A DNA stretch of 27,837 bases from a virus. The stretch is from positions 1 to 27,837 of IMG/VR virus record IMGVR_UViG_3300022602_000330. One strand, 5' to 3'. Below are positions 14,501-27,837 of the stretch, piece after piece; the stretch's first letter is position 1, and each line of letters starts with the position of its first letter. A program made the position numbers and the translations under genes. The notes below the pieces were generated by a model. It was not told where the DNA came from. It made no database searches and saw nothing but the letters and a program-made list of their open reading frames with translations.

Positions 14501-16586
14501 TGTTACAGCAGCATCGATTACGATCCTTGCTGCAGGCAGTGGTTATACCATCGGTGATATCTTATTACTGAAATCTACAAATTATACTGTATCTACTAGT
14601 ACTTTAGAGCTTACAGTATCCGAGGTAACCATCACAGGCGGCATTGCAGCGATAACTATATCTCAGCCTGGGCAGTACACCTATCTACCACTTGAATATC
14701 AGTTCTACACAGGTAGTAACGGTACAGGAGCACAGATAGGTGTATCATGGGGTGTTAAAACCACTACTCAGGTATCACAAGGTCTTTATACCACTAAGCC
14801 AATTGAGCCTATATCACAATCTTCGTCGTCTGGAACTGGTGTAGGGGCAACATTTAACGCACTATATTCTAATACAATTGCTCAAAATACGTTTACTGCA
14901 GACGGTAGCACCACTGACTTTGTGATAGACATCGCACCTCCTAACAATGATGTAAATCTATTAATGATTACCGAAGACGGTGTGGTAATGACTGCTAATA
15001 ATTCTGTAATTACTGCTAATGGAAGGATAATCACCATATCCCCAGCGCCTGCGGCTGGTAGCACAATCACTATCACCTTATTTGATACAAACATCTATAG
15101 TGTAGTTAATGACCAAGAAATATTGGTGCAGAACGGAGTATATTCATACCAATTGAATTACCAGCCTTACAGCACGCAACCGACTTATTTCAGCACTACT
15201 GTTGCAGTAAACGGAAGAGAAGTTACGCCGCCGCCAATGCAGTCATTTGTCAGTGACGGAATAGACGTTGGATTCATTACTAGCCTACCACTAGGTAATC
15301 CAAATTACGTGCAAGTGTATGCAGGCAATTACTTAAAAGTTTACGGGACTGACTACACCATAGTTGGTAATTCTATTGTGTTTTATACAGCACTTAGCGC
15401 CGGTACGGTGGTTACATTAGTTCTTATAGATCCAACCTACGGATACAATTATTCAATAGAAAATGGATTTATAAATTTTGCCTATCCTTCTACGATAATA
15501 CATGCAGGCGATGTGATTAAAGTAATTACCTATAGCCAAGATATTGGATATCAATTTACAGTTCAAGAATTTTCAGAACCAGATTTTGTAGATGATAATG
15601 GGCACGCTTATTATGAATTGATAAATGATCCTTATAACGATAGCAGCGCTATGGTTTGGGTGAACAATAGCATGAAAACATTGCTGTATGATTATCAGAT
15701 CGAAATACGCCAAAAGTATGGCCCTGGATGGGAAATAGTAGCCTGGGATCTAATAGGTTGGGACAGCGAGGTCGTGATAGCGTCATTCCTGAAACAGACC
15801 AAGTACACAATTGGTGATTCTGTAGTCATCCAATACATGTCGGCTAAGCCAGATCGTCTTCCTATAGCATGGCGCACAGTGTCGACAGGATTGCATACTA
15901 CATCCACGGCTATAGATGATAACAACAAGACAATATTGCTATCAGATGTGTCAGTATATAGCGAAAGCATTGAAGTAGCTGATATTTCAGTGCTTGATAT
16001 GCCAACTGAGTATCAACCAGGTACAATATGGATTGAAGACGAGCGAATCGATTATTGGTCGGTAACTCCTGTACCTACATCGTTGCTGCCTTACAGAGGT
16101 TATTTGCAGCAACTGGTACGAGGGACCTATAACACTCCGTCTGGCAATGTTTCAACATTATACGATACTATATTCTACGATGGCAACGGTGTGAACGCAT
16201 ACTTTGCAACACCTAGCGGAACACTACCAGCTGGTGGAAATTTTGTGGTTTACATCGGAACTAACATGCAAGTTGATAATGAAATCGATTCTGTTAGAGG
16301 AACATATAGCGTTGTTAAAAATCCATCTGGGCAACCTCCTGGACAATATATAAAATTTGATACAGCACCTGCGGTTGGCTGGCGCAATGTGAGAATAGCA
16401 AGCCCGAGATATGAGGTTGCATTTAATAGTCAGATCAGCCATAGAGCTGGATCAACTGTCATTGCAGCAGGTATAAGCCAGACTATACCGGGCGGATATC
16501 AATGGGTTTCGACTCCAGACGGTATGCAATACAGTTCATCTACTCTGGCGAGCTTCTTGTTAAATCACAGCGGAACCAGGAGCTAA
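5592..16586 (+). CDS. Giant baseplate/tail structural protein (3664 residues; position of gp7)
   Basis: One unbroken frame of 3664 codons overlaps the gp6 stop by 8 nt. Position suggests a wedge component in the place of T4 gp7 (about 1030 residues), but I see no direct gp7 match. The N-terminus (KPPYYDQTKDYYVG; YYSWSPPIDLDKLLNYTNYYW) resembles giant structural proteins of T4-like cyanophages. At about residues 2470-2500 lies ALLAYLNEVKPYHAKVRAFV, also typical of those proteins. Past about residue 2650 the sequence becomes beta-repeat-like: GSDYMIGD, GMGYQPGE and GSGYTIGD segments, then FTADGSTTDF, FVSDGIDVGF and FYDGNGVNAYF units of the kind found in fibre and adhesin stalks. A Trp-rich motif occurs at about 225, 2613 and 3380. 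There is no signal peptide or membrane segment. I infer a wedge-anchored N-terminus with an extended, surface-facing C-terminal part. Structural role likely; precise role unknown. Confidence 0.75.
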   Translation: MVNQRRPIQLLPAVNQTDTLTKFFAATVDHLFQPESVEFLGGYIGTKPPYYDQTKDYYVGEPTKSRSDYQLPVTAISSNQFSARVTNIMFYHDYVNHLQFNGAVVSNESRLFEQEYYSWSPPIDLDKLLNYTNYYWVPAGPDPIVLLDKTDIGSVIGKLQYTYNGVYQLTSNDEIFGGSLVFTTGLVIKTANDINPALNNIPFIINNVGRGIQLLPLPDFIDPSWDTRAWDTLGWDGDDSLYVKDYITIERTLNPNNQWSANNRWFHIDVLQVSQTVSTADFQSRAARPIIEFQGDLQLYNNGMNGRQPVTYILSNVSDVLGSIVGKTSYNIGDRLLEDGNTILVTGDSNPLVNNRVYLVGGIANLGVITLTEVGGSPVLGDSVLVEYDDITILNVVYIGRVQYWYNGTAWIRSQQKVQYAAPLFQLYDLYGNALDDPSIYPGSNFKGNTIFTYATDQYAALDTILNIRPLLDQFGAYVFNNTLVTDTYNYLYNATTTSIRGYSYYRNNTSVGYEYNNGWYRSPVASRQYIVNDFAILSTTSSFTIDQVPDPNPGLLPSIYVYLISNGYSTTLVNGTDYSVSANIVTLTYPAIPGQRVLVRSWNRSARINNVGYYELPLNLTANANNQQVTVVSQDQLQAQFGSIIGNQPGIEGSPLGNNNWRDTSQIRGLGLEILQHTAPLIKPMILTSGNITVGINSVQSNTDPLQAMQYAQNQYVRFYNRFISALFNLSTNGYTAAEPPQTWINTALTQINLGKSPASPWANSGPDGPQGRYTYAKSTAPTWVPPTATRLGMADAYYPTVYYSGEDLFIQCHDGARIAMSQDGTPLGGIEYGLTSTSDVNLLNSPVAAAWLQFELNLYNNMPAVYSNPQAKLALDISAYTPGRWRSSDYTLIEYLTVTYPMFDRWVIGNQIQWQPNITYNANDPFTWNYGALRDLAGQPVPGYWQGIYRWFYDTDRPHLAPWEMLGFSQMPPWWTAQYGPAPYTRGNTAMWSDLAAGIIRQGSRAGIYIQGIRPGLLKCIPVDDQGNLLPPQAAGCVQGIPSVSQASADWKFGDGSPIESVWIYSNDYNFVIAQYSYLMKPAQFIEYNWDTLRQVEVFSSQPTAQSIYIDTDNRRANSQLYMHRENPSLIGGNINIPNESTLTYYGSGGVQHWISEYLISQNLSVTQYLGSIVRGTGAQLAHQCGGFVASNLYLTADSFGQIGYTSQIVPAENVKTYLYKSSSIKESFYTGVIVTQVRDGWKVVGYDAINQHFLIIPSNVYGTKTTIIVGNDRVTWYKTGVDAAQEVAYGTVYNTKQQVFDFLISLQRYQEFQGWIFDQFNPDNNTTLDWTQSGREFLFWSQGNWSDGNFIALSPLALSAKFVQQFGSVQFVNAIVGGTYPIIDKTGNRIDGQNIEVLRYDDTVTINVLGTQNIYGIRLFATTLESVIVIDNLTSFDDMIYDPLFNLYQPRLKLFAYRTNDWNGRVDAPGYFLYQDGTDNQWTLVSNFEKTANDFTKYYNIDQPKNFNSVDPISGNIVTTSTVLSAVDVQAISDLSKHQIGYQHRPYLANLLLEESTEFQFYQGFIRQKGTLKSFEALLRNNTIVPSTSNYVYYEEYALRTARFGSTALNTGIDFIIPQNQYLNDPQQIAVFSTQGTDREIGGVINLIPNDPLIVVPPTSYSSITNPLFPLRTNPGPDWQTDLPNAGYVLQGETTFTVSNSAVLSTFWETQNAAGDPIVNGDTVWQFIDQQQSWNVWKYTTANVYVVNTTPSISTGQPTVINCSGNVGLNPGDVIVLDGISNVNTLQGTFTVGNIVGNGNSFTVGVNTFTIGAGGNVSAYKSTRFATVYDRDLYPPLNGWQPEDIAYVDKTNYGINGWTVYQYLNNQWMPTRSEQYKINSELMLQAKLYNQQDDTVYSYLEYYDPATGYIPGQAQKNIDRSSVYDPAYYNTGNVEIYPIDSARAWGPEHIGETWWNLNAVRYYDYQISTTAYRWQNWGKIAPGTSVDVYEWVQSPVTPDMWSTYVANQTSFSQYGLNYVPSGTVLNSSDPAYTAITTYNSNNIAQTYYYFWVANATTLPLPPTRDLTTLQIRNIITYPNQYGVRWYAAIDDRNILVGNIGYALNGLNTVLSLLYTHTPNNQNDFKQWDLIREKDPTSIPDDYFWLKLKDSLTSKDGDGNNVPDPYLSNIMRYGTLIRPRQSWFKLRTVAAQTYVAEANTLLATILLVPDISRGSWVDYFYIEQPPPTADYTVGTISSRDALAGTISDGSTVLVLAGADTNNLWILYQYQYNNGNYAWIELQVQAYRTKNYWYYVDWYLVDSLVTADTIITNTVADRNGLTAFEGTDGTIVKVTNRDDGYWAIYKWTGGDSRSWTTVGYQNGTIQISTGVYDGSINTMLFGTTPFDTTGFDIFPHVEFGNIIDGLKNAIFNNPNPAIPGESVYLNQLFFTMINYVLVEQGFVDWIFKTSFLYLDGFNVPLSTSQLYQPDYNEALLAYLNEVKPYHAKVRAFVTHRTASDIDYVTVTDFDNPAAIPAGVNVTNTSPFSNSFWQQNYIANPELIRTLKINLLFDRVASSGNIQLGDSGAWDRIQAYYSPTADMIRKDDPNLIPNSDYRGIIMDGYQFIFKPGWDYAAWGSPTGWDASQSSFTDYLDILVQGGVVPAYDKFFGTGLRRSFTLSKRPQGPDLAVVWADGKLAQYGTDWIIPNFVTDLLIASSGSDYMIGDVLTLEISPKVAPTEFTVTSIDGNGGITGLQLNTSGRYDIFVAGQVSATYGQYVTGTGTGAVFQPVWGGNNLIFLSPPNSSAAPNVFVLYVGTTFLPAPTGPIDIINDGNQFVQPYIEEDHPEELYKFRAPESTRIDVYQRAVGGAPLIYMTIYDITPLRDRYLLGAVPMDTASVIAQIDGRMLTYGLTNDFVINWATNEMVFLVPPSGNILQIMTISTGGTGISMINTYVVNPGMGYQPGERITLAGGITAANQQAIIAVETVTAASITILAAGSGYTIGDILLLKSTNYTVSTSTLELTVSEVTITGGIAAITISQPGQYTYLPLEYQFYTGSNGTGAQIGVSWGVKTTTQVSQGLYTTKPIEPISQSSSSGTGVGATFNALYSNTIAQNTFTADGSTTDFVIDIAPPNNDVNLLMITEDGVVMTANNSVITANGRIITISPAPAAGSTITITLFDTNIYSVVNDQEILVQNGVYSYQLNYQPYSTQPTYFSTTVAVNGREVTPPPMQSFVSDGIDVGFITSLPLGNPNYVQVYAGNYLKVYGTDYTIVGNSIVFYTALSAGTVVTLVLIDPTYGYNYSIENGFINFAYPSTIIHAGDVIKVITYSQDIGYQFTVQEFSEPDFVDDNGHAYYELINDPYNDSSAMVWVNNSMKTLLYDYQIEIRQKYGPGWEIVAWDLIGWDSEVVIASFLKQTKYTIGDSVVIQYMSAKPDRLPIAWRTVSTGLHTTSTAIDDNNKTILLSDVSVYSESIEVADISVLDMPTEYQPGTIWIEDERIDYWSVTPVPTSLLPYRGYLQQLVRGTYNTPSGNVSTLYDTIFYDGNGVNAYFATPSGTLPAGGNFVVYIGTNMQVDNEIDSVRGTYSVVKNPSGQPPGQYIKFDTAPAVGWRNVRIASPRYEVAFNSQISHRAGSTVIAAGISQTIPGGYQWVSTPDGMQYSSSTLASFLLNHSGTRS

Positions 16587-16589
16587 ATA
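16582..16589 (+). promoter_or_regulatory. Late-promoter-like motif GCTAAATA at the end of the giant gene
   Basis: The second copy of GCTAAATA contains the TAA stop codon of the giant gene. A Shine-Dalgarno AGGAG lies immediately upstream at 16578-16582 and the next ATG is at 16594. If initiation follows T4 late geometry (about six bases past the box), the transcript would begin at or near that ATG and lack the AGGAG. It may therefore serve mainly the gene at 16732. Confidence 0.55.
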
Positions 16590-16731: not shown

Positions 16732-17328
16732 ATGTCAATGGTAGAAAAGAGCGCCGAACGTATCACGGGACATGTGCTGATCAGAGATACTCTAACAGGT
16801 GAAATCCTAGTAGATAAGATGAATGCTATAAACTATGAGAATTTTTCAATTAGTTTAGCACGCACTGTTGCCAACAGGCCAGATGGATGGATACAGGAAA
16901 TGTGCTTTGGCAATGGCGGAGCGACGGTTAGCGAGATAGGAACTATAACTTATCTACCCCCTAATGTAGTAGGACAGACTGCACAGTTATATAATCAAAC
17001 CTATTATCAAGTGGTGGATGATCAGAGCCCATTAGACCTCGACCCTGCCCAAAATTATATCAGCACATCTCACATAGATGGGACAACTTATACTGACGTA
17101 ATTGTCACATGCCTATTAGATCTCGGCCAACCGGCTGGCCAGGATGCATTTGATACTGCGACCAATATAGGCGGTACATATGTTTTTAATGAGTTAGGCT
17201 TGAAAGCATACAGTTCGAATGGACCAAATACGGGTAGATTGCTTACGCATGTCATCTTTAGTCCAGTTCAGAAGAGTTTGAACAGACAGATACAGATCGT
17301 TTATACTATTAGAATACAGACGGTATGA
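16732..17328 (+). CDS. Phage virion structural protein (198 residues)
   Basis: I recognise the general type: a structural protein of T4-like aquatic phages, usually annotated only as a virion protein. Typical features are the opening ITGHVLIRDTLTGEILVDK, then NAINYENFSISLA, MCFGNGGATV, and the ending THVIFSPVQKS with NRQIQIVYTIRIQ. There is no enzyme motif, signal peptide or membrane segment. GAGG at 16719-16722 gives a good ribosome site 9 nt before ATG 16732. It lies between the giant protein and the tail fibre, so a baseplate-to-fibre connector or fibre accessory role is reasonable but inferred. Its first 30 residues share the GxxxIxDxxTGxxLV pattern with the small protein just upstream. 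Confidence 0.75.
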   Translation: MSMVEKSAERITGHVLIRDTLTGEILVDKMNAINYENFSISLARTVANRPDGWIQEMCFGNGGATVSEIGTITYLPPNVVGQTAQLYNQTYYQVVDDQSPLDLDPAQNYISTSHIDGTTYTDVIVTCLLDLGQPAGQDAFDTATNIGGTYVFNELGLKAYSSNGPNTGRLLTHVIFSPVQKSLNRQIQIVYTIRIQTV

Positions 17329-17342: not shown

Positions 17343-17369
17343 TGAAGCCAATCATAGCAGGTGAATTAC

Positions 17370-18839
17370 ATGTCAACTAATATCTACGAGTTTAATGGTA
17401 CTCTTCTCGTTACGATAGCCGACGGGGTCTTGAATACTACAGCTTCTCCGTTACAGTTACCGGGCAAGGGCTATACCAACTATGGTGCACCTGTGCTGCA
17501 AGACATACTCTGGACGATGACAAATTTTGCAGGAAGCGTTGCACCTACGCCTCCGTTGCAAGGAATATTGTGGTATAATACTGGCTCTAATGCACTGCAG
17601 ATTTACACAGGTAGCGTATGGTCAACCATACTCAAGGATAATCAGAACAATCTGCCTGCTATTACCTTAACCTATGATCTCGGATCATCTGCATTGCGTT
17701 GGAACAATGTATGGGCAGGTACCATAAATGCTTCAACCATTAATGCAGGTAATATCACAGGCGATAATACCCTATATCATACTAATCAAACAAATATTCC
17801 AACTCAAAACAATCTATACGATCTTGGATCGTCGTCATATCAATTTAATAACGTTTATGCAAATACAGTGCATGCTGGTACTGTAGCTGGTGCAACTAAT
17901 CTGTTTTATACAACACAAACCAATACACCGACAGTTAGTCTAACATATGACCTTGGATCTGCATTGCTGCAGTTCAACAATGTGTATTCATACAAGTTTG
18001 TTGGTAATGTGCAGGCCACAGCTAACAACACTTTAACATTTACAACTGCTAGCACAGAAGCCATGCGTATCAATACCAATGGTAATGTTGGTATTAGTAC
18101 AACAAATATAGTTACTGGATTTGAATCAGCTGCAGCTATGAACATGTTCACTGGACGTGTTGGTATTGGTACTAGTGCTAATAGCTATCCGTTAAGCAGC
18201 AATGTCATCGCTGTGTTTGGCAACCATATTGCATATGGTAACATAGTCATACAGAATTCTACTCAAGGTGGGACAGGTATCTATTTTGCCGATGGTACGT
18301 TCCAGACATCAGCAGGCGGTGCCAATAATGCTATGGTCAAGAATGCTACTAATTTACCAAATGCCACCTCAACATATGACCTTGGTTCTGCAAGCTTTCT
18401 TTGGTCAAACATATATGCTACAACATTCCATGGTACTGCTACTCAAGCCCAATATGCAGACGTTGCAGAGCGTTATGCTGCTGATGCTGAGATGGAAGTT
18501 GGTGATGTGGTTACGATTGGCGGTGATGCAGAAATTACCAAGACTACAATAGATTGTGATACTTTTGTGTTCGGAGTTATATCCGATAAACCTGCACTGC
18601 AGATGAATAGCAAGGCAGGTACTGATGCAACACATCCGTATGTAGCGCTCTTAGGTCGCACTCCGTGCAAGGTGATAGGCCGAATAGCAAAAGGTAATCG
18701 ATTAGTGTCAAGCAGCATACCTGGTGTTGCGAGAGCTGCTGACAGTGGCGAAAATTCGCTCTGTATCATAGGTCGAGCTCTGGCAGACAAGATGACTGAT
18801 GATGTCGGATTAGTTGAGATAGTGATCGGAAGGGCCTGA
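17370..18839 (+). CDS. Tail fibre protein with YDLGS repeats and C-terminal chaperone-like domain
   Basis: I place the start at ATG 17370 (MSTNIYEFNG), 5 nt after AGGTGA; the in-frame GTG at 17361 is part of that ribosome site. The 489-residue product opens with a fibre-type segment containing GILWYNTGSNALQIY. It then carries four copies of YDLGSxxxxxNNVY-type repeats beginning at residues 102, 150, 193 and 336, a stretch with MRINTNGNVGIST and GRVGIGTS, and a C-terminal domain from about 362 (YADVAERYAAD, VGDVVTIGG, FGVISDKPA, VALLGRTPCKVIGRI). That end resembles the C-terminal domains of phage fibres related to intramolecular chaperones (Peptidase_G2-like). I cannot identify a self-cleavage residue. 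Likely role: trimeric host-contact fibre. The next gene begins 1 nt after the stop. Confidence 0.82.
   Translation: MSTNIYEFNGTLLVTIADGVLNTTASPLQLPGKGYTNYGAPVLQDILWTMTNFAGSVAPTPPLQGILWYNTGSNALQIYTGSVWSTILKDNQNNLPAITLTYDLGSSALRWNNVWAGTINASTINAGNITGDNTLYHTNQTNIPTQNNLYDLGSSSYQFNNVYANTVHAGTVAGATNLFYTTQTNTPTVSLTYDLGSALLQFNNVYSYKFVGNVQATANNTLTFTTASTEAMRINTNGNVGISTTNIVTGFESAAAMNMFTGRVGIGTSANSYPLSSNVIAVFGNHIAYGNIVIQNSTQGGTGIYFADGTFQTSAGGANNAMVKNATNLPNATSTYDLGSASFLWSNIYATTFHGTATQAQYADVAERYAADAEMEVGDVVTIGGDAEITKTTIDCDTFVFGVISDKPALQMNSKAGTDATHPYVALLGRTPCKVIGRIAKGNRLVSSSIPGVARAADSGENSLCIIGRALADKMTDDVGLVEIVIGRA
17673..18419 (+). repeat. Four YDLGS tail-fibre repeats
   Basis: About 45-bp coding units start at 17673, 17817, 17946 and 18375. 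Each encodes Tyr-Asp-Leu-Gly-Ser, a variable hydrophobic/aromatic part, then (N/S)N(V/I)(Y/W). Copies 1-3 are 43-48 residues apart, while copy 4 is separated by a 143-residue insertion. The pattern is typical of repeating beta units in phage fibres; the DNA copies are diverged, so the repeat is maintained mainly at protein level. Confidence 0.8.
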
Positions 18840-18840
18840 T

Positions 18841-19797
18841 ATGACCTATAGTATCGGTGGGCAGATACAGGCAACTGACTATAACAATTTCACCGGTACT
18901 ACGGCGGTAAATGCTGCTTATGCAAGTTCCGCTGCAGCTACAGCCAAGATGGCTGCTCTAATCGGCGTTGGATACGGCGACAGGGGTTATGGGCAAACTT
19001 CGGCAACATTAAGTACAGTCGCAGCAGGTAATACAGTTACAGCTGCGCAATGGAACAATCTTCAATCTACGATGAGCACTATGAACACTCACCAAGGATC
19101 GGGATTAACTTTGCAACCTGTAGTATCAGTAGGTGGTACTATACTAGCCGAAGATGGCGAACTTAGTCGCCCAAATATCTCTTCGTTGATATCATCGTTA
19201 GATACAAATAGGCTTAATGCTACAGTTACAGATATGACTGTCACCGCTGCATTATCTAGCAGTCAAGCTACAGGTTGGTCTGGTACTGTACAACATGTTT
19301 TTACAGCAGTATTTGCCACGGTTGATCAAGCTAGGTATTATTTCAACACTGGCGGACAGATACGATTTGCCGGATCCAATACCGGAAGCACTACGCCTGC
19401 TGGTGCAGCATGGGCAACGTTGCTTTCTGCTATGGGTACTATCAGCTTTGGTGCAGGTGGCACTTCGTATACTGGATCGGGTGGTACTATAACTAATAAC
19501 ATTGGTTATTATAATCTTACAACAAGCCCTACGCAGATATTCATACATAACGGTGCTGCGCCATATGCTGGCATTTACTATGCGATATCTATCCAAACTA
19601 ATGCCACAGGTACTGCCAATGGTAGCAACGGTAGCACAATAACATGCACGGCTACATTTAATGATTCGTCTGCTCCGCACGGACCAGTCACTGGTACCAC
19701 TACTAGCAGCATTAGTTCCTATAAAGCATCTAATTCCGGAGCATTGAATAATCCTGCTGTAGCTGCTCCGACCTTCACGACCACGACACCTCTGTGA
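18841..19797 (+). CDS. Phage virion protein, Gly/Ala/Thr-rich (318 residues)
   Basis: It starts 1 nt after the fibre stop with a purine-rich GGAAGGG just upstream, so expression is probably coupled to the fibre. The N-terminal 85 residues show a pattern seen in structural proteins of T4-like aquatic phages: IGGQIQATDYNNF, GVGYGDRGYGQT, then VTAAQWNNLQSTM. The remainder is Ser/Thr/Gly-rich and low in charge, suiting a beta-sandwich or fibre-tip protein. No catalytic motif, signal peptide or membrane helix is seen. From its place after the fibre it may be a fibre accessory, adhesin or decoration protein; this is inference. Function not recognised. Confidence 0.7.
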   Translation: MTYSIGGQIQATDYNNFTGTTAVNAAYASSAAATAKMAALIGVGYGDRGYGQTSATLSTVAAGNTVTAAQWNNLQSTMSTMNTHQGSGLTLQPVVSVGGTILAEDGELSRPNISSLISSLDTNRLNATVTDMTVTAALSSSQATGWSGTVQHVFTAVFATVDQARYYFNTGGQIRFAGSNTGSTTPAGAAWATLLSAMGTISFGAGGTSYTGSGGTITNNIGYYNLTTSPTQIFIHNGAAPYAGIYYAISIQTNATGTANGSNGSTITCTATFNDSSAPHGPVTGTTTSSISSYKASNSGALNNPAVAAPTFTTTTPL

Positions 19798-19856: not shown

Positions 19857-20213
19857 ATGGACGAGCGTTTACAAAAAGCATTAGAATTTTCTAAATATCG
19901 CATATCACTCTTCAATCGCAAAGAGGATCTCAAGGTCAAGGTCAACAATATGTTGCTACATGCCCATAACGGTGGCATTTTTAAAGCAACACAGGAATTG
20001 CTATCATTCACTAAACTCATGCTTGATAGCGGGCATACCACTGTGGTATTGATAGACGAAAATGGTAATCCGATAGAGATAACAGATTTAGAATCATTTT
20101 TAGATGACTGTATCAGCAAATATTTTGAAGCTACAAATTATTATCACATAGAATATAGCAAGCTTCGCAAGGCAAGATCTGTGAACAGCATCTATGAGTT
20201 TGTGAATGATTGA
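19857..20213 (+). CDS. Small conserved phage protein of unknown function (118 residues)
   Basis: This begins the cassette. It has a charged N-terminus (LQKALEFSKYRISLFNRKEDLKVK), a helical middle (NGGIFKATQELLSFTKLMLDSG), a short beta segment VVLIDENGNPIEI, and an ending YFEATNYYHIEYSKLRKARS. That layout matches a small hypothetical protein I associate with T4-like aquatic phages, where it often lies among late genes. It looks soluble and mostly helical, with no catalytic motif or membrane segment. Its last 8 bases overlap the next start codon, so it is co-translated with the glycosyltransferase-like genes. Function unknown; a role linked to the adjacent fibre or sugar genes would be guilt by association only. 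Confidence 0.7.
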   Translation: MDERLQKALEFSKYRISLFNRKEDLKVKVNNMLLHAHNGGIFKATQELLSFTKLMLDSGHTTVVLIDENGNPIEITDLESFLDDCISKYFEATNYYHIEYSKLRKARSVNSIYEFVND

Positions 20214-21111
20214 TCATCCAGATGGATTTACATTACCTCGTGGTTATCTAATCTATGCTCACAATAATGATAACATAGATTATGCCAGCTTAGCCGTGTG
20301 TAATGCTCTGTTGATAAAAAAACATCTCAGAGAAAATGCAGTAGCATTGGTTACTGATTCGCACACAGCAAGATATATGGAGCAGCTTTACGATCCTGGC
20401 ATATTGCGCATGGCATTTGATAGGATAATCTACGACGACAGCATCACCAACAGCGCGTCGCGTCGATATCATGATACTCGTTATACGACGTTTACTGACA
20501 GCTACAACAATACTAATCGTCCAAACGCATTAGATCTTTCGCCGTTTGATGAGACTGTTTTGATTGACAGTGATTATCTCATGTTAGATAATACCATGGA
20601 TTTAGTTTGGGGTAACTTTGAAGATTTCATGTGTAATCGCAAGACGTCTGATTTAAATCATAAAGTTGACAATTTTGGATTCGATAACAGATTTAGCGAT
20701 ATGAGCATACCGCTCTACTGGGCAACTGCTGTATACTTCCGCAAGACTGAAAAAAGTAAGCTTATATTTCAGATGATGAATTTTATCAAGGAAAATTATG
20801 TTTATTACCAATATCTGTATCAGTTTGCACCAACTGGATATTTTCGCAATGATCATGCGCTGAGCATTGCTATACATCTATTGAATAATCTCATGGAATA
20901 TGGTAGCATCGCATCTCTGCCTAACAATCGATTGTTGTTCAGCATGGAAGAAGATGAAATGCACGGATTTATAGACGGAGCATGTGTCATAACCAGCGAA
21001 CCAGAACAGGGAGATTTTCGCTTGCATGTAGTATCTCAAAATGTGCATGTTATGAACAAGCGTGCTATAATTCGAAACAAGGATAAGATAATAAACTATG
21101 CAATCAGCTGA
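20206..21111 (+). CDS. GT8-like glycosyltransferase (GT-A fold), copy 1
   Basis: The 301-residue protein has the layout of a GT-A, family-8-like transferase. A beta strand RGYLIYAHNN near the N-terminus is followed by a nucleotide-binding half with VALVTD and FDRIIYDD. The segment SPFDETVLIDSDYLML then carries the Asp-Ser-Asp motif (residues 121-123), expected to hold the metal and sugar-nucleotide phosphates. Family knowledge: such enzymes move a sugar from UDP- or GDP-sugar to an acceptor while retaining anomeric configuration. The sugar and acceptor cannot be read from sequence. The start overlaps the previous gene by 8 nt, and the end overlaps the next gene by 14 nt. The next gene is a diverged paralogue with the same PYDET...D-x-D plan. 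Activity is inferred from motifs alone. Confidence 0.6.
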   Translation: MIDHPDGFTLPRGYLIYAHNNDNIDYASLAVCNALLIKKHLRENAVALVTDSHTARYMEQLYDPGILRMAFDRIIYDDSITNSASRRYHDTRYTTFTDSYNNTNRPNALDLSPFDETVLIDSDYLMLDNTMDLVWGNFEDFMCNRKTSDLNHKVDNFGFDNRFSDMSIPLYWATAVYFRKTEKSKLIFQMMNFIKENYVYYQYLYQFAPTGYFRNDHALSIAIHLLNNLMEYGSIASLPNNRLLFSMEEDEMHGFIDGACVITSEPEQGDFRLHVVSQNVHVMNKRAIIRNKDKIINYAIS

Positions 21112-21973
21112 GATACGATCCCGTCGGCGTGGATTTTTCACCTTTGCTCAGAATAATCCAGATACTGATTATATCAGAATGGCATATGCATTAGCGTTGA
21201 GCCTCAAGGCAAGTCAGCATTCGACACCGTATCTAACCATAGGAATAACACCAGGTACAACAGTGCCGGAGAAATACGCACATGCATTTGATAACATCAT
21301 AGAGATACCGTGGGGCGATCATGCAGCTGATAGCATATGGAAACTCGAAAATGAATGGAAGTCTATCCATATGAGTCCATATGATGAGACCATTAAACTT
21401 GATGCAGACATGTTGTTCTTCAATGACATAGGATCGTGGTGGGAAGCTCTGGCTAACAAGGAATTTTCCATATGCAATAGAGTATTAGATTACAGAGCTT
21501 ATGAAATTACAGGGGACTATTACAGAAAAACCTTTACGGATAATGATTTGCCTAACGTTTATACCGGATTTATGTATTTTAAGAAGACTCCGGCTAGCAT
21601 GGAAATTTTCGATCTTGCTAGGTATGTATATTATAACTGGCAGAGTTTTTTCGAACTCGTTTTAAAACCTGACAGCAGACCTACATATGTTAGTACTGAT
21701 GTGGTATTTGCAATAGTTTTAAAATTGTTAGATCTCGATCAAGATTTTTATACTACCAAGCAACTGCCGACATTTGTGCATATGAAAAGCCAGATACAGG
21801 GCTGGGGTGCAGATGCATTAGATGAAGACTGGAACAAGATACTAAGCGTCTTTTTTAATCCGGCATTAGAATGCAAGTTAGGTAATTATTTGCAGTTTTT
21901 TCCGTTGCACTATCATGTAAAAAGCTTCTTAACTGATGAGATAATAGAATATTATGAGCGAAATACTGTCTGA
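21098..21973 (+). CDS. GT8-like glycosyltransferase (GT-A fold), copy 2
   Basis: At 291 residues this follows the same plan as the gene before it: RGFFTFAQNNPDTDYIRMA near the start, YLTIGITPG, FDNIIEIPWGD, then SPYDETIKLDADMLFF with Asp-Ala-Asp at residues 102-104. Further along, NVYTGFMYFKKT and STDVVFAIVLKL resemble the acceptor-side half of GT8 enzymes, and the C-terminus has a His-containing FPLHYHVKSF segment. The shared PYDET and D-x-D features, with otherwise moderate similarity, suggest an old tandem duplication followed by change of specificity. It starts inside the previous gene (14-nt overlap) and overlaps the next by 20 nt. A metal-dependent sugar transferase is likely; substrate unknown. 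Confidence 0.6.
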   Translation: MQSAEIRSRRRGFFTFAQNNPDTDYIRMAYALALSLKASQHSTPYLTIGITPGTTVPEKYAHAFDNIIEIPWGDHAADSIWKLENEWKSIHMSPYDETIKLDADMLFFNDIGSWWEALANKEFSICNRVLDYRAYEITGDYYRKTFTDNDLPNVYTGFMYFKKTPASMEIFDLARYVYYNWQSFFELVLKPDSRPTYVSTDVVFAIVLKLLDLDQDFYTTKQLPTFVHMKSQIQGWGADALDEDWNKILSVFFNPALECKLGNYLQFFPLHYHVKSFLTDEIIEYYERNTV

Positions 21974-22493
21974 TAAGAAAGCATGGGCTTGGTATGATAC
22001 CGAGTCATTAAAACTATTACACGTGGGATTCCATGAGAATTCTTACGACGAGCCCGGTCTTAGCAAGCTAGAAATAAGTTATAATACTGCACTTGACATT
22101 GCATCGGGTAAGAGCACTTTTCATCAATATAAAATTGTTATTGCTGGTAAAACACCAACTCTTTATTTTAAAAAATTGAGACCATTTACGAAGAAATTCT
22201 GGAACCTCGTAGACACAGAAGCCAACCAATTTGTCAGCAAGTTTGATTCGGCTGAAACTAATAAGAGCCCCGTTACAATATTGAGAAAAACCCCTGCTAA
22301 ATTTGTTGTTAGTTTAGTTGGTGATGCTAAAAACATAGTTTTTTATATCACTATGAAAAATGATCCGAATTATCTTATCAAGAAGTTAGATTTTTTAGAT
22401 TATGCTCACACAGTGGGATCGGTAACTGGTATTGAGATACCAGTTGAATCTGAAGTAGATTACAGCATATATGTGAGGTACGATGCAGCGTGA
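21954..22493 (+). CDS. Unknown protein embedded in the glycosyltransferase operon (179 residues)
   Basis: I do not recognise this protein. It is soluble-looking and Lys-rich with no D-x-D, Rossmann or membrane signature. Visible landmarks are AWAWYDTESLKLLHVGFHENSYDEPG near the start (AWAWYDTESLKL and GFHENSYDEPG), a Thr/Lys-rich middle, and a beta-rich C-terminal half ending DYSIYVRYDA that could be an immunoglobulin-like or jelly-roll fold. The 20-nt overlap upstream and 11-nt overlap downstream show it is an integral part of the coupled operon. Possible roles are an accessory or sugar-binding subunit for the adjacent transferases, or a small virion protein they modify; both are guesses from position. 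Confidence 0.6.
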   Translation: MSEILSDKKAWAWYDTESLKLLHVGFHENSYDEPGLSKLEISYNTALDIASGKSTFHQYKIVIAGKTPTLYFKKLRPFTKKFWNLVDTEANQFVSKFDSAETNKSPVTILRKTPAKFVVSLVGDAKNIVFYITMKNDPNYLIKKLDFLDYAHTVGSVTGIEIPVESEVDYSIYVRYDAA

Positions 22494-23388
22494 TATGAGT
22501 GAATTTGATTTTGTATTTCTCAGCTATGATGAACCAAATGCTGAAACACTCTTTGCAGAACTATTAAACATAGTGCCGTGGGCAAAGCGCGTACACGGTG
22601 TAAAAGGATTTGACACTGCGCATAGAGCATGTGCCGATGTAGCTGACACTGATTTCTTTGTAACAGTTGACGGTGATAACAGCGTAGACGAACAGTTTTT
22701 AAATGTAAAACTTAACATTGGCGATGGACAAGACGATCACGCATGGACCTGGGCCGGACGCAATCATATCAACGGTTTAGTATATGGTAATGGTGGTCTA
22801 AAGTTATGGAGCAAGCAATTCGTGCGCACCATGAACAGCCACGAAAATAGCAATGCAGATGCCAGCAAGGTTGATTTTTGTTGGAGCACCAAATATCATG
22901 AGGTGTTTGGAACATACAGCACAACCAAACCGAATGCAAGTGCATATCAAGCATGGAGAGCAGGATATCGAGAAGGTGTGAAGATGAGCCTCGATAGCGG
23001 CAACAGATTAAAACCAGCAGAATTTGCTCGTAAAGTATGGGTATATAATCTGCATAAACTTTTGATATGGTGCAGCGTTGGTGCTGATGTTGAGAATGGT
23101 ATATGGAGCATATATGGTGCCCGTCAAGGTGCCTTTGACTGTAATCTGACTGACGATGATCACACCATGATACGGGATTATGATTGGTTTCAAGATAAAT
23201 GGACCCAAGTGCAAGATCTCGATCCTATGACAGAATCTGCTAAGCTTAGGGAAAAACTAAGACACGGTTTAAACATAAACATTGCTGATCTAGATGCAGA
23301 CAGTAGCAGATTTTTTAAGAGGATATACATCAACCCGCCGCGTCCGTTGGTTGGTTATGATCAGATAAGTCACTTAGCAGCTATGTAA
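22483..23388 (+). CDS. GT-A-like protein of the SYDEPN family, copy 1
   Basis: This 301-residue protein belongs to a phage family repeated three more times downstream. Landmarks in order are VFLSYDEPNAE, AKRVHGVKGFDTAH, FVTVDGDNSV (Asp63-Gly-Asp65, a D-x-D candidate), NHINGLVYGNGGLKLW, AYQAWRAGYREGVKMS and DVENGIWSIYGARQG. A C-terminal tail has DADSSRFFKRIY and PPRP. The strand, D-x-D and acceptor-loop order fits a GT-A glycosyltransferase, but activity has not been shown as far as I know. The start could be 22483 (GAGGT only 3 nt upstream) or ATG 22495 (MSEFDFVF), whose position better matches the relatives. Its stop overlaps the next ATG by one base. Confidence 0.6.
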   Translation: MQRDMSEFDFVFLSYDEPNAETLFAELLNIVPWAKRVHGVKGFDTAHRACADVADTDFFVTVDGDNSVDEQFLNVKLNIGDGQDDHAWTWAGRNHINGLVYGNGGLKLWSKQFVRTMNSHENSNADASKVDFCWSTKYHEVFGTYSTTKPNASAYQAWRAGYREGVKMSLDSGNRLKPAEFARKVWVYNLHKLLIWCSVGADVENGIWSIYGARQGAFDCNLTDDDHTMIRDYDWFQDKWTQVQDLDPMTESAKLREKLRHGLNINIADLDADSSRFFKRIYINPPRPLVGYDQISHLAAM

Positions 23389-24842
23389 TGTATGACATCG
23401 TATTTGCTAGCAAGCACGATAAGAATGTAGTCGCATTCAATCGCTTCAAAATTAGATATCCAAATGCTAAATGGTTGACTAATGTCAAGACATTGAGTCA
23501 AGCAGTCTCGGCATCTGTGAAGATGTGCATGACTAGCATGCACTGGTTAATTACAGATGATGTGCTGTTGCATCCTGATCTAGATCTAACATGGAAGACC
23601 GACACCTGGGACAGACCGTATCCGCATATCTGGATTACAGTTGACAGCCTCGGAAATCCTGTAAATGAATATGCTGGGGTTTATCTCATACCGAATAGAT
23701 ATAAGGTATCGTCTGATGAACTAGAAACTGGTATATTATCACAATTCAAGGTAATGCCAGATCATCAACAGGTATTGATACCGTATGATATGGTTAAAGC
23801 TTCCTATGATGATTTTAGTAACGTAGCACATGCATGTGAAAAAGTTAGTGATTTGTGCCATACAGAAATGCATTGGGTCATCATGGACGATGTTGTGCTA
23901 AACAATGATTTTGATCTCAACTGGCGACCGCCTGTATGGGACAGGCAGTATGTACATGTGTGGAAGACCGCAGATAACAACGGTAATGAACTAGATAATA
24001 ACACAGGAGTATATCTAGTACCATGCAATTATCAACCTACTAACATTGAATTAGAACAAGGCAGCCTAAGTTCTATCAAATTTGTAGACCCGATTGCCTC
24101 TACAGTTGTGCCGTATGACATATTTTTCATCAGCTATAATGAGCAAAATGCAGAGAGTAACTTCCGTGCACTGCAGACAAGATTCCCGGCTGCGCAGCAT
24201 GTAAGTGGCATCAAAGGCATCAATAATGCTCACATGCGCTGTGCTGAACTAAGCAAGACCAGCATGTTTTGGACAGTAGATGCTGACACTATAGCAGACG
24301 ATAGCTTTACTTTCAGTTATAGGCCACCAGATCATGATAGGCAATATCTGCATCTATGGCATAGTAGAAATCCCGTGAATGGTCTAAATTACGGATGGGG
24401 AGCGATAAAACTGTGGCCGACACGTTTGGTTAGAGAATTTAAATCAAACTGGTTAGATTTCACGACCACAGTAGGCAACATCAAGATTATTCCCGACATT
24501 ATAGCAACTACAAACTATAATTGCGATGAAATGAGTACCTGGCGCAGCGGATTTCGCGAAGCAGTGAAACTATGTGTTAATGTTAATAAAGGTGACTTTC
24601 AAGAAAGCATGGAACGCCTCATGGTTTGGTTAACAGCAAAAAGCAGCGCCGATTGGTCAGAAGCTAGCAAGCAAGGTGCAATGGCGGGAACTGATTTCTA
24701 TCTAGAATGCAAGCGCTCAAATGACACCGCCGGTTTAAAACAAATAAACGATTTTGAATGGTTAGAAATTAGATTCAATAATCGTACAGAAAAATGTTTA
24801 GAAATGTCTAGGTCTGATCTATTATCAGTATTAAGAGAATGA
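23388..24842 (+). CDS. Three-module GT-A-like protein of the SYDEPN family
   Basis: The 484 residues divide into three related modules. Module 3 (about 243-484) is complete: YDIFFISYNEQNAE, SGIKGINNAH, WTVDADTI (Asp298-Ala-Asp300), NPVNGLNYGWGAIKLW and STWRSGFREAVKL. Modules 1 (2-125) and 2 (133-236) contain only the N-terminal half. They keep YD(I/M)V.AS, (M)HW and WDR.Y.H.W, but have Asp-Asp-Val (57-59 and 167-169) where active relatives have Asp-x-Asp. They also lack the NGL.YG loop. Modules 1 and 2 end alike (GVYLIPNRY, GVYLVPCNY). I infer two non-catalytic modules, for acceptor binding or spacing, fused to one probable transferase. The TAATG junction upstream and 3-nt gap downstream support co-translation. 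Confidence 0.62.
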   Translation: MYDIVFASKHDKNVVAFNRFKIRYPNAKWLTNVKTLSQAVSASVKMCMTSMHWLITDDVLLHPDLDLTWKTDTWDRPYPHIWITVDSLGNPVNEYAGVYLIPNRYKVSSDELETGILSQFKVMPDHQQVLIPYDMVKASYDDFSNVAHACEKVSDLCHTEMHWVIMDDVVLNNDFDLNWRPPVWDRQYVHVWKTADNNGNELDNNTGVYLVPCNYQPTNIELEQGSLSSIKFVDPIASTVVPYDIFFISYNEQNAESNFRALQTRFPAAQHVSGIKGINNAHMRCAELSKTSMFWTVDADTIADDSFTFSYRPPDHDRQYLHLWHSRNPVNGLNYGWGAIKLWPTRLVREFKSNWLDFTTTVGNIKIIPDIIATTNYNCDEMSTWRSGFREAVKLCVNVNKGDFQESMERLMVWLTAKSSADWSEASKQGAMAGTDFYLECKRSNDTAGLKQINDFEWLEIRFNNRTEKCLEMSRSDLLSVLRE

Positions 24843-24845
24843 AAC

Positions 24846-25532
24846 ATGTACGACGTTGTCTTTATTAGCTACGAAGAATCAAATGCCGAAGAAAACTGGC
24901 AACTATTAAAAGCTACTGTACCAACCGCCAAGCGGTTGCACGGGATCAAAGGTATACATTTAGCGCATATTGCTGCAGCTAACATGGTATCTAGTGAAAT
25001 GTTTTATTGTGTTGACGGTGATGCTGTAATCGTTGACGGATTTAAATTTGATTATATGGTACCTCAACATCAGTTAGACCATGTGCATGTGTTTAGGGCT
25101 AGAAATCCGATAAACGATCTAGTCTATGGATATGGCGCAGTAAAACTATTGCCTACTCAAGAAGTTAGGCGGTTAGTTCATAAAGATTTTAAGCCAGATA
25201 TGACCAGCAGCATCAATCGCAACTATAAAATAATTCATCAATTATCAAATGTAACAGCATTTAATACTGATGCATATAACACATGGCGGAGTGCATTTAG
25301 GGAATGCTCCAAACTGGCCAGCGGAGTAATAGATGGCCAAGTTAACACTGAGACACAACAGAGATTAGAAACATGGTGCATAAAAGGCCAAGACCGAGAA
25401 TATGGCCATTGGGCATTGCTCGGAGCTCAGGCTGGCCGTAAATTTGGATTTGAAAACAAAGGTACTGACCAATTAATGAAAATAAATGATTGGCAATGGT
25501 TACGAAGTCAATATGAAAGAACCCTGACATGA
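24846..25532 (+). CDS. GT-A-like protein of the SYDEPN family, short single-module copy
   Basis: At 228 residues this is the most compact complete member: YDVVFISYEESNAEENW, AKRLHGIKGIHLAH, CVDGDAVIV (Asp57-Gly-Asp59), NPINDLVYGYGAVKLLP, NTDAYNTWRSAFRECSKL, and a C-terminal helical part ending WALLGAQAG and INDWQWL. It shares the NPIN/YGYGAVKL and WRSAFRE variants with module 3 of the preceding gene rather than with the longer copies at 22483 and 25529. I associate this form with T4-like aquatic phages, where it is normally listed as hypothetical. A glycosyltransferase is the best guess from the D-x-D and strand pattern. An ATGA overlap links it to the next gene. Confidence 0.6.
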   Translation: MYDVVFISYEESNAEENWQLLKATVPTAKRLHGIKGIHLAHIAAANMVSSEMFYCVDGDAVIVDGFKFDYMVPQHQLDHVHVFRARNPINDLVYGYGAVKLLPTQEVRRLVHKDFKPDMTSSINRNYKIIHQLSNVTAFNTDAYNTWRSAFRECSKLASGVIDGQVNTETQQRLETWCIKGQDREYGHWALLGAQAGRKFGFENKGTDQLMKINDWQWLRSQYERTLT

Positions 25533-26398
25533 CCGCTGCATGGATGCGAGACCTAGAAGTTTTTTATATAAGTTACGACGAACCTAACAGGGAATCAAAC
25601 TGGGCACGAGTACAGGAATTATTACCGAACGCTACTCATATACAAGGTGTTAAAGGTTTTGAGGCAGCACACAAGATATGCGCTCACGCAGCCTTAGCTG
25701 ACCGATTTTTAACCATAGATGGCGATAATTGGCTATTAGACAGCGGATTGGACACTTTCCTAGATGATGCTGGTATGGAAGATGTTGTGTTTAGCTTTAA
25801 GAGCAAAAACATAATCAATGGCCTAGAATATGGCAATGGCGGCTTAAAATGTTGGAACAGAGATGTGTTACTAGCCAGTAATACACACGAAAGCAGCAAC
25901 ACCACAGATTTCTGTTGGGCATTGCGCTATTACCAGATAGACACACTTGCTAGTATTAGCGTGAATAATTCTAGTGCCTATCAAGCATGGCGTGCAGGCT
26001 ATCGCGAAGGTGTCAAGATGAGTTATCTCAATGGCCTTCCGATGAAGAATCCTGTAACAGATATTTCTCTACTCTATCAGGGAAATCTCAGCAAGCTTAA
26101 CCTATGGATGGCAGTAGGTAGAGATGTTGAGAACGGTACCTGGGCTATGTTAGGAGCTAGACAGGGTTTCTATGAGCTATATGCTAACATAATAGACAAT
26201 ACTGTAATCAATGATTACCATTGGTTTGATAGACACTGGAAGAAAACTGAGCATGTAAACACGGAAACGGTGCTGAAGAGATATGCAGATCTATTACAGA
26301 ATGAGTTCGGAGTGTTCGTACCAGAATTAGATGCTTCTACCAGTTTGTGGTTAAAACAAAATTATTTGCATCCGCCTCGTAAAGGTATGATGCTGTGA
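25529..26398 (+). CDS. GT-A-like protein of the SYDEPN family, copy 4
   Basis: This 289-residue protein is closest to the one at 22483. Shared landmarks are FYISYDEPNRESNW, IQGVKGFEAAH, TIDGDNWL (Asp64-Gly-Asp66), NIINGLEYGNGGLKCW, HESSN, TDFCWA, AYQAWRAGYREGVKMS and DVENGTWAMLGARQG. The same C-terminal extension appears (LDASTSLWLKQNY, then PPRK). The two genes therefore form a subfamily separate from the shorter members between them. It starts within an ATGA overlap and ends in a GTGA overlap, so ribosomes can pass directly to the methyltransferase-like gene. Likely a sugar transferase; donor and acceptor unknown. Confidence 0.6.
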   Translation: MTAAWMRDLEVFYISYDEPNRESNWARVQELLPNATHIQGVKGFEAAHKICAHAALADRFLTIDGDNWLLDSGLDTFLDDAGMEDVVFSFKSKNIINGLEYGNGGLKCWNRDVLLASNTHESSNTTDFCWALRYYQIDTLASISVNNSSAYQAWRAGYREGVKMSYLNGLPMKNPVTDISLLYQGNLSKLNLWMAVGRDVENGTWAMLGARQGFYELYANIIDNTVINDYHWFDRHWKKTEHVNTETVLKRYADLLQNEFGVFVPELDASTSLWLKQNYLHPPRKGMML

Positions 26399-27249
26399 TC
26401 CCCGATCTAAAAAATCGAGATATTTTATCTAAGCTGGCAAATAATTCTAATGTTTTAGAATTTTTATTAAAACTACGACCCGATGAAATAGAGTCATTTT
26501 TGACCATTACACGTTGGTCACCCAGCCTTTTAGTCAAGCTGCGAGATCAACCAGAGCATATGCGGGTGCTGCACAGGATGTGGCCGATAGTACCTGATAA
26601 GGATGAATTTATAAAATCTTATTTTGATATCTATTATCACGAAAGTGCTAGAGAGCTTAGCATATTAGATGCATTTAGCCAAGGCCAGATTGACAGCAAG
26701 ATATGGTTGATTGATGCATTGATTAAGCTTGATAGAAATCTAGGTAGAGTTTGGATAATGTGCGGTTGGATAGGATCGCTTGCGTATCTCATTTTCAAAA
26801 AACAAGCTAGATTAACGGTAGAATCTATACGCAGTTTTGATATAGATCCGGTTTGCGCAGATTTGGCTGATAGATTGAACAAGCGAGAAGTAAAACAGAA
26901 TTGGAAATTTAAAGCTAGCACCATAGATGTAATGGATCTTACCTACGATGATTGCTTCTGGCATACAAAAAAATCAGATGGATCGATGGAGAGAGTCTGC
27001 GAAACTGCTGATACCATTATCAACACTAGTTGTGAACATCTTGTTGATTTTGATAGGTGGTTTTTCAACATACCAGACGGGAAATTGATAATTCTGCAGT
27101 GCAGTGATCACGAATCATACGAAGGCCACGTGAATAGCATGAATAACATGTATGAGCTTTCATATAGAGCTAAATGTAGGAGAGTTTTATACAAGGGCAC
27201 GCTGGACTGCGGTGAGTATTCTCGTCACATGCTCATAGGTGTAAAATGA
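26395..27249 (+). CDS. Class I SAM-methyltransferase-like protein, copy 1
   Basis: A GTG start is embedded in the preceding stop (GTGA). The 284-residue product has a helical N-terminal part of about 90 residues, then a Rossmann-type core: VWIMCGWIGSLAYLIF (123-127 CGWIG in place of the usual glycine-rich loop), SIRSFDIDPVCADLADRLN (Asp149-Ile-Asp151, the usual ribose-binding acidic strand end), WKFKASTIDVMDL, ADTIINTSCEHL and GKLIILQC. This order matches class I S-adenosylmethionine-dependent methyltransferases, though the altered loop means SAM binding needs proof. The target is unknown; as the genes before it look like sugar transferases, methylation of a glycan end is a reasonable inference. 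The next gene is a paralogue beginning in an ATGA overlap. Confidence 0.55.
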   Translation: MIPDLKNRDILSKLANNSNVLEFLLKLRPDEIESFLTITRWSPSLLVKLRDQPEHMRVLHRMWPIVPDKDEFIKSYFDIYYHESARELSILDAFSQGQIDSKIWLIDALIKLDRNLGRVWIMCGWIGSLAYLIFKKQARLTVESIRSFDIDPVCADLADRLNKREVKQNWKFKASTIDVMDLTYDDCFWHTKKSDGSMERVCETADTIINTSCEHLVDFDRWFFNIPDGKLIILQCSDHESYEGHVNSMNNMYELSYRAKCRRVLYKGTLDCGEYSRHMLIGVK

Positions 27250-27837
27250 ACCCAACTGTTGGCAACGACGATGCTATATTAAACGGTGTTAAAAAGCATC
27301 TTTCTAACCTATCTCATGTTTTTAATCATGTAATAGACAGAGAAAAATTATTTGAACGGTATCTAGCACTATATGACCATCCTGATTCCAGACTTATAGA
27401 CACGATGGATGCATGGAGTCGTGGGCAGATAACGAGCAAAATATGGTTAATAAATCAATGTTTAGAACTTGAGCTCAAGCTTGGAAGAACTTGGATACTA
27501 TGCGGATGGATAGGCACGCTGAGCTATCTAATGCTTGAACGCAGGGATTTGCTTGCTATATCTACTGTGCGTAGCTTTGATATTGATAAATCTTGCACAG
27601 CATTAGCCGACGAACTTAATCGATTTGATGTGAAAGACAGTTGGCGTTTTAAGGCAACTACTATTGACGTAAATTCTTTGATATACACAGATTTTAAGTA
27701 CGAAACTTTGAGATATGATGGCAGCATACAACCCCTATACGAATCAGCTGATACTATAGTTAATACCAGCTGCGATCACATGGGTAGCAATAATGCCTGG
27801 TGGGATAATATTCCTATTGGTACAATAACCATTCTTC
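27246..27837 (+). CDS. Class I SAM-methyltransferase-like protein, copy 2 (3' partial)
   Basis: ATG 27246 overlaps the previous stop (ATGA) and the frame stays open to the window edge (197 complete codons), so the 3' end is missing. It aligns throughout with the preceding protein: GQITSKIWLIN, TWILCGWIGTLSYLM (Cys86-Gly-Trp-Ile-Gly), VRSFDIDKSCTALADELN (Asp112-Ile-Asp114), WRFKATTIDV, DGSI, ADTIVNTSCDHM and IPIGTITIL. Its N-terminal helical part is about 37 residues shorter. The core motifs are kept but surrounding residues differ widely, so this is an old tandem duplication rather than an assembly artefact. Same likely activity, possibly a different target position. Confidence 0.6.
   Translation, partial: MNPTVGNDDAILNGVKKHLSNLSHVFNHVIDREKLFERYLALYDHPDSRLIDTMDAWSRGQITSKIWLINQCLELELKLGRTWILCGWIGTLSYLMLERRDLLAISTVRSFDIDKSCTALADELNRFDVKDSWRFKATTIDVNSLIYTDFKYETLRYDGSIQPLYESADTIVNTSCDHMGSNNAWWDNIPIGTITIL

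Follow-up and report, generated by a model that had tools for sequence, protein, structure and literature searches.

A conserved glycosyltransferase block linked to a fiber-like protein in uncultured aquatic phages: a candidate fiber-glycosylation system

Introduction

Clusters of glycosyltransferase genes adjacent to fiber genes are already known from phages, in which they are common, usually variable and annotated one by one, and very few cases of virion glycosylation by phages have been worked out. In the T4-like aquatic pelagimyophages, the host recognition cluster (HRC), a hypervariable, nonsyntenic island located among the structural genes, with VrlC on one side and gp14 on the other, contains fiber genes, then several glycosyltransferases, most commonly of family GT8, and radical S-adenosylmethionine (SAM) cassettes, and has been read as a means of O-chain modification (Zaragoza-Solas et al. 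2020, PMC7029224). In Agrobacterium phage Atu_ph07, the virion-protein cluster (coding sequences 170-215) extends into a radical-SAM-rich operon (PMC6102473). Mycobacteriophage-encoded glycosyltransferases glycosylate structural proteins (Freeman et al. 2023, cited in PMC12619734); in these phages, unrelated to the one studied here, the glycans are reportedly on capsid and tail-tube proteins. Here, we analyze a block of predicted glycosyltransferase and methyltransferase genes located next to the fiber genes in a 27,837-b virus fragment (IMG/VR record IMGVR_UViG_3300022602_000330; this whole stretch is referred to as the window). By profile matches, the uncultured aquatic phages carrying the block number in the hundreds, and its strict linkage to a fiber-like protein, p18841, suggests that they attach a modified sugar to their own tail fibers.

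Results

Organization of the block and comparison with described systems

The genes of the block, preceded by p18841, are as follows:

18841..19797, + strand: p18841, Ser/Thr-rich (Ser plus Thr 28.3%), charge-poor, fiber-like protein, putative acceptor, co-occurring with the glycosyltransferase block
19857..20213, + strand: p19857, conserved protein of small size (118 aa) that opens the block, directly 5' of GT1, possible adaptor
20206..21111, + strand: GT1, GT8/glycogenin-like glycosyltransferase, 301 aa, with a glycogenin profile match and a conserved DxD
21098..21973, + strand: GT2, GT8/glycogenin-like glycosyltransferase, 291 aa, ancient paralog of GT1 (hhalign), with a conserved DxD
21954..22493, + strand: unnamed, mostly beta protein, 179 aa, in a conserved slot between GT2 and SY1
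22483..23388, + strand: SY1, 301 aa, predicted glycosyltransferase with a GT-A fold, family unnamed (AlphaFold model, Foldseek, DxD)
23388..24842, + strand: SY2, 484 aa, two truncated SY-like repeats (from repeat comparison) and a full SY domain, in its own clade
24846..25532, + strand: SY3, short SY-family glycosyltransferase, 228 aa, SY1 homolog in its own clade
25529..26398, + strand: SY4, long SY-family glycosyltransferase, 289 aa, in its own clade
26395..27249, + strand: MT1, class I methyltransferase-like, 284 aa, GTG start, assigned through family matches of its relatives
27246..27836, + strand: MT2, second methyltransferase-like gene, aligned with the MT1 family, open at the contig end

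An earlier note on this DNA, made from the sequence alone, had described the nine open reading frames (ORFs) from GT1 to MT2 as a coupled operon, and their positions, their common strand and the pattern of their junctions were recovered exactly: overlaps of 14, 20, 11 and 1 nt, a 3-nt gap, and three overlaps of 4 nt. The overlap between p19857 and GT1 is 8 nt. The sorting of these genes into a GT1/GT2 pair, four genes of a SYDEPN family (SY1 to SY4) and an MT1/MT2 pair likewise stood, with homology confirmed inside each group; the count of four is correct for homologous genes, but SY2 is an SY domain plus two degenerate N-terminal repeats. The contig ends inside MT2, before the block is complete. 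A Pfam search with the nine proteins gave nothing above the cut-off, a PHROG search gave one weak match, between GT2 and a family without an assigned function, and no flippase or polymerase of the membrane type was recognized among the block genes.

The block resembles the pelagimyophage HRC in its succession of fiber genes, several glycosyltransferases and, in relatives, radical-SAM genes. Unlike the HRC, it has a fixed p18841-p19857-GT1-GT2-(unknown)-SY order, includes a glycosyltransferase family without a family-model match, and is tied to one fiber-like protein. It follows a gp25-gp6-giant structural protein array and fibers, in a lineage with a jumbo-phage-matching baseplate, and its downstream neighbor is ThyX or ThyA instead of gp14. 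As for the mycobacteriophages with glycosylated virions, neither an SY family nor radical-SAM partners are known to us from them.

Conservation of the block and its linkage to p18841

A scan of IMG/VR with SY1 yielded 14 contigs with the same gene order, and scans with the SY and MT profiles yielded more than 500 relatives each, the best 80 of each being used. Throughout, the genes are arranged as p19857-GT1-GT2-(unknown)-SY...SY-MT-radical SAM-twitch radical SAM, an order that recurs in all 98 loci carrying GT1, with p19857 directly 5' of GT1 in 90 of them and six of the remaining eight located at a contig edge. Block orthologs mostly share 48-90% protein identity. The later half of the block varies, with parts absent or multiplied in different phages; a block contains one to four SY genes and one or two MT genes.

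Because loci picked by SY or MT contain these genes by construction, two further scans were performed with nonenzyme baits. Of the loci recruited by p19857, 69 have 4 kb or more of downstream sequence, and every one of these continues into GT1-GT2-(unknown)-SY (four have two GT1 matches). The second bait, p16732, belongs to the structural backbone upstream of the block:

16732..17328, + strand: p16732, conserved virion-associated protein, function unassigned, 198 aa, backbone gene outside the block (phrog_11259, E 2e-71)
17361..18839, + strand: p17361, tail-fiber-like protein, 492 aa (PHROG tail fiber family phrog_19602, E 9e-17)

Among the 57 p16732 loci with at least 9 kb of downstream sequence, 31 contain p19857-GT1-GT2 and 26 lack it in the examined stretch; p18841 is present in all 31 of the former. 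Five loci, in which p18841 lies at the very end of the examined stretch, appeared to have it without the block, but four of these carry glycosyltransferase genes farther along the same contig and in the fifth the contig ends there. The final tally is 35 loci with both p18841 and glycosyltransferases, 1 cut by the contig edge, and 21 with neither, and a search of the whole records of 20 block-less phages found GT1 and GT2 nowhere. In the block-less loci inspected, the fiber-like genes run directly into thymidylate synthase or other genes. These counts indicate that p18841 and the glycosyltransferase block come and go together (Fisher test, 3e-11, calculated before the five exceptions were corrected and inflated by the relatedness of the genomes). 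Furthermore, p18841 proteins are on average richer in Ser and Thr (23.7%) than the adjacent fiber ORFs (19.3%; p 1.5e-8) and the fiber ORFs of block-less phages (20.3%; p 1.4e-6). The recurrence of the cassette with fiber genes across related phage genomes, which the earlier note had put forward as a check, is thus borne out by both the 98 GT1 loci and the 69 p19857 loci.

GT1 and GT2

An hhalign comparison shows GT1 and GT2 to be homologs (probability 97.7%, E 1.4e-12), and their joint profile matches glycogenin-1, a GT8 enzyme, over the N-terminal half only (E 1.5e-4), whereas neither protein matched Pfam GT8 when searched singly. The DxD is conserved in 85 of 85 GT1 relatives and the C-terminal His and Lys in 86 of 86; in the GT2 relatives, DxD and HY are present in 89 of 89, and the Lys after the C-terminal metal-binding His in 73% (100% in GT1). 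The similarity of sequence profiles and the combination of DxD with a C-terminal His and Lys both support the GT8-like class that the earlier note had assigned from motifs. Recoding of TAG in GT1 of record G025 was considered and dropped, the stops occurring only ahead of the start codon.

The SY family

Searches of Pfam, PHROG and NCBIfam gave no family match above chance level for SY1 to SY4, and a sequence search of the PDB with the SY profile returned weak, implausible matches only. The AlphaFold model of SY1 (predicted local distance difference test [pLDDT] 85.5, predicted template modeling score [pTM] 0.82) shows a glycosyltransferase fold of the GT-A type, in agreement with the D-x-D motif noted earlier. 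Among solved structures, Foldseek matched the model to the glycocin S-glycosyltransferases SunS/ThuS, to TarS, TarP, WrtF and RmlT, and to sugar-nucleotidyltransferases, with the top PDB matches at E 4e-5 to 1e-3; since the template modeling (TM) scores are about 0.3, the assignment, which is well supported by the model, is confined to the fold class and does not extend to a subfamily. Matches among the BFVD viral structures are largely annotated as glycosyltransferases, and there is a weak match to the glycosyltransferase of mycobacteriophage Che8 (E 2.6e-4). The DxD of SY1 (D63-x-D65) lies at the end of the strand 58-63 and is invariant in all 259 SY sequences covering the position; such invariance, as in GT1 and GT2, argues for active transferases. 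Taken together, GT1, GT2 and the SY proteins are very probably glycosyltransferases.

SY4 is 41% identical to SY1. In SY2, the two repeats are 43% identical to each other (E 2e-33), and repeat 1 matches the SY profile (E 1.5e-7). In these N-terminal repeats (window 23388-24107), the DxD region has turned into ITDDV/IMDDV, and they are possibly noncatalytic binding domains. In the SY tree, the four copies of the window fall into four separate old clades that are common to several phage lineages, that of SY3 being related to the short SY of marine phages. Because each slot forms its own old orthologous clade, the paralogs are ancient, and the copies are probably long-diverged, specialized enzymes. 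A pathway grown by duplication, as the earlier note proposed, therefore holds for the deep past but not as it was worded, recent duplication of the SY genes being rejected on the basis of the tree.

Methyltransferases, the beta protein and downstream genes

Relatives of MT1 and MT2 match Spermine_synth (5.6e-5), Methyltransf_25 (4e-4) and Methyltransf_12/11, while MT1 itself has no direct match; motif I is variable (GWxG) in the family, and an acidic loop and NTSC(E/D)H are conserved. The PDB search with the MT profile gave no significant match. These family matches support the class I methyltransferase-like reading of both genes, which are likely to be divergent members of that class.

The slot between GT2 and SY1 is occupied in nearly all loci by a family match or an ORF, mostly of 173-222 aa. 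The model of the window's beta protein has a pLDDT of 77 and a pTM of 0.44, and fold comparison with it gave no informative match.

Where the contig of a near relative extends farther, MT2 is in most cases followed by two radical-SAM genes, which in the window would lie beyond its end and so were invisible to the earlier note. The twitch radical-SAM protein of locus L011 scores 424 bits against NF033640 (cut-off 170). Farther downstream come ThyX or ThyA and then a kinase-like protein; the ThyX/ThyA equivalogs score above cut-off and are swapped between phages 3' of the block (L011 16597-17250, L023 19621-20508, L107 16241-17080).

Source of the fragment and the structural backbone

Relatives and metagenome numbers point to fresh water as the origin of the fragment. 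Upstream of the block, the window encodes an endolysin-domain protein, gp25, gp6, a 3664-aa giant protein, p16732, p17361, p18841 and p19857. The best cultured matches of its gp6 (about 40% identity) are from Sinorhizobium phage Phosso (469 kb), Atu_ph07 (490 kb), Serratia phage BF and Erwinia relatives, on which basis the virus groups by gp6 with jumbo myoviruses; L107, another contig with this block, measures 518,643 b. Phosso and Atu_ph07 share with the window the backbone gp25-gp6-giant protein-p16732-p17361, with the p16732 ortholog in the same position, followed by a radical-SAM-rich operon. In contrast to the window, a profile search of these two phages found no homolog of p18841, p19857, GT1, GT2, SY or MT; the operon in this slot (L217 17272-25015 in Phosso, L218 16909-23647 in Atu_ph07) contains several radical-SAM genes, genes for uncharacterized proteins some 300 aa in length and, in Phosso, a cupin. 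A 44-aa ORF (window 16594-16728, + strand) lies between the giant protein and p16732, and its C-terminal end, VLVYGFLKITDAQTGQVLVSTRS, resembles the p16732 N terminus; comparable extra copies of this N terminus are found in L017 (3877-3978) and Atu_ph07 (L216 36807-37106).

Expression signals

Two late-promoter-like motifs precede the fiber genes:

16583..16589, + strand: CTAAATA, 5' of p16732, a pattern match found at the same site in L006, L021, L022, L023 and L107
17336..17342, + strand: CTAAATA(T), about 25 nt before p17361, positionally conserved in near relatives

The latter motif lies 26-32 nt from p17361 in nearly all near relatives that have the gap, and its core TAAATA also precedes the homologs of gp25, p16732 and p17361 in cultured Phosso. 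CTAAATA resembles the T4 late promoter; the classic T4 form, TATAAATA, is absent from the window, in which sigma-70 promoters and terminators occur at chance level. CTAAATA/TAAATA sites, a candidate late promoter of these jumbo phages, are found a short distance ahead of gp25, p16732 and p17361 at window positions 1722, 16583 and 17336 and at L215 positions 19580, 37266 and 37915. Inside the block, there is no conserved copy. Since the motif precedes the fiber genes, none is conserved in the block and most junctions overlap, late co-transcription of the block with the fiber genes appears likely.

Relatives outside the uncultured phages

No SY, GT2 or p19857 was recognizable in the INPHARED phages by tblastn, in which GT1 was not searched alone. 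The queries without a cultured-phage match were SY1, SY2, SY3, GT2, p19857, a marine SY, the GT2 of a Bdellovibrionales bin and the twitch radical SAM, and the only cultured-phage match of MT was a "putative methyltransferase" of Pelagibacter phage Mosig, 25% identical to MT1. In GTDB, viral contigs in bins aside, SY homologs occur mainly in Bdellovibrionota, with a few in actinomycetes and Dyadobacter. The Bdellovibrionota loci L183, L189 (9980-15420) and L191 (9998-15054) encode a long and a short SY beside a twitch radical SAM; further radical-SAM genes are present, with an MT homolog in L191, all away from fiber genes. These modules thus resemble the block in combining SY with the twitch radical SAM (and MT), but differ in being located on bacterial contigs that lack GT1/GT2, p19857 and fiber genes. 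It is possible that these phages and predatory bacteria have exchanged genes, or that there is a host link. SY-like proteins of Streptomyces, Actinosynnema and Dyadobacter (L199-L201, L203-L205) are encoded beside GT4/GT2, FkbM methyltransferase or radical-SAM genes. Together, these bacterial settings support glycan or peptide chemistry. The protein of L203 resembles an SY fused to a GT2 domain.

Discussion

With moderate confidence, we favor the reading that late-expressed enzymes of the block furnish p18841, a fiber protein of the phage itself, with a glycan that is methylated and tailored by radical-SAM enzymes. The glycosyltransferase and methyltransferase classes are well supported, and from them and the genomic setting we infer the acceptor, the sugar, the order of the steps, the function and the late expression. 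The block would be transcribed late, together with the fiber genes; GT1 and GT2 would attach the first sugars to Ser/Thr residues of p18841, possibly assisted by p19857, the beta protein or both; the SY enzymes would extend the chain; and the methyltransferases and radical-SAM enzymes would trim and cap it. All steps would take place in the cytoplasm of the host and draw on its nucleotide sugars. On the finished fiber, the phage-specific glycan could alter host attachment or shield the fiber.

The strongest alternative, although somewhat unlikely in our view, is that the enzymes alter the host lipopolysaccharide (LPS) O-chain or another surface glycan, blocking superinfection or aiding release. 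The GT8 and radical-SAM genes of the pelagimyophage HRC have been read in this way, and GT8 enzymes include known LPS enzymes (PMC7029224); the bacterial SY homologs, too, reside in loci with GT4/GT2/FkbM genes. Envelope remodeling, however, would not require a strict one-to-one tie to a particular fiber-like protein, the block contains no recognized membrane or lipid-carrier gene, and it is probably expressed late with the structural genes. For these reasons, the virion is favored over the envelope as the target, and the leaning of the earlier note toward a role in the virion or adsorption gains support from the joint gain and loss of the block and p18841.

Less probable still is a peptide or small-molecule product, akin to ribosomally synthesized and post-translationally modified peptides or secondary metabolites, in which a small precursor, perhaps p19857 or the beta protein, would be modified. 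The closest solved folds of SY1 are SunS/ThuS, the block is accompanied by a twitch/SPASM radical-SAM partner, and the Bdellovibrionota combine two SY genes with twitch radical SAM (and MT) away from any fibers. Yet SunS/ThuS are only the best among many GT-A matches with TM-scores of about 0.3, neither p19857 nor the beta protein resembles a short precursor peptide, and the short blocks of L019 and L024 have no MT or radical-SAM genes in the examined stretch. Glycosylated phage DNA, a target that the earlier note had also entertained, is very improbable, even though phages do use glycosyltransferases on DNA and thymidylate synthase lies downstream in relatives: the ThyX/ThyA genes are ordinary ones, predicted to serve synthesis of deoxythymidine monophosphate rather than to act as the hydroxymethylase that such modification was considered to involve, the block adjoins fibers and not replication genes, and the fold neighbors of SY1 act on proteins and polysaccharides.

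Several points weigh against glycosylation of p18841. The linkage and the Ser/Thr content are correlations among related genomes, so that the p-values overstate independence, and Ser/Thr richness is general among fibers. CTAAATA, a pattern match, is no commoner in the window than in shuffled sequences. The SY and radical-SAM genes (with MT) of the Bdellovibrionota occur without fiber genes, which implies that the later steps can act on another target. Finally, a block linked to adsorption could also act by changing the surface of the host, the role suggested for the pelagimyophage genes.

What is new in this locus is the fixed gene order, the unnamed glycosyltransferase family, the strict linkage of the enzymes to p18841 and p19857, and the radical-SAM tailoring partners. 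More tentatively than for the fiber reading itself, we suggest that the block represents a widespread, previously undescribed fiber-glycosylation system of aquatic giant and T4-like phages, the later steps of which are common to predatory Bdellovibrionota; a dedicated Ser/Thr-rich fiber, an initiating GT8 pair, an adaptor-like protein, new GT-A extenders, and methyltransferase and radical-SAM tailoring would together produce an unusual capped virion glycan. By tying a fixed set of enzymes to one fiber-like protein, the block offers a concrete acceptor candidate for virion glycosylation and introduces a new family of enzymes to which proteins of Streptomyces and predatory bacteria are related.

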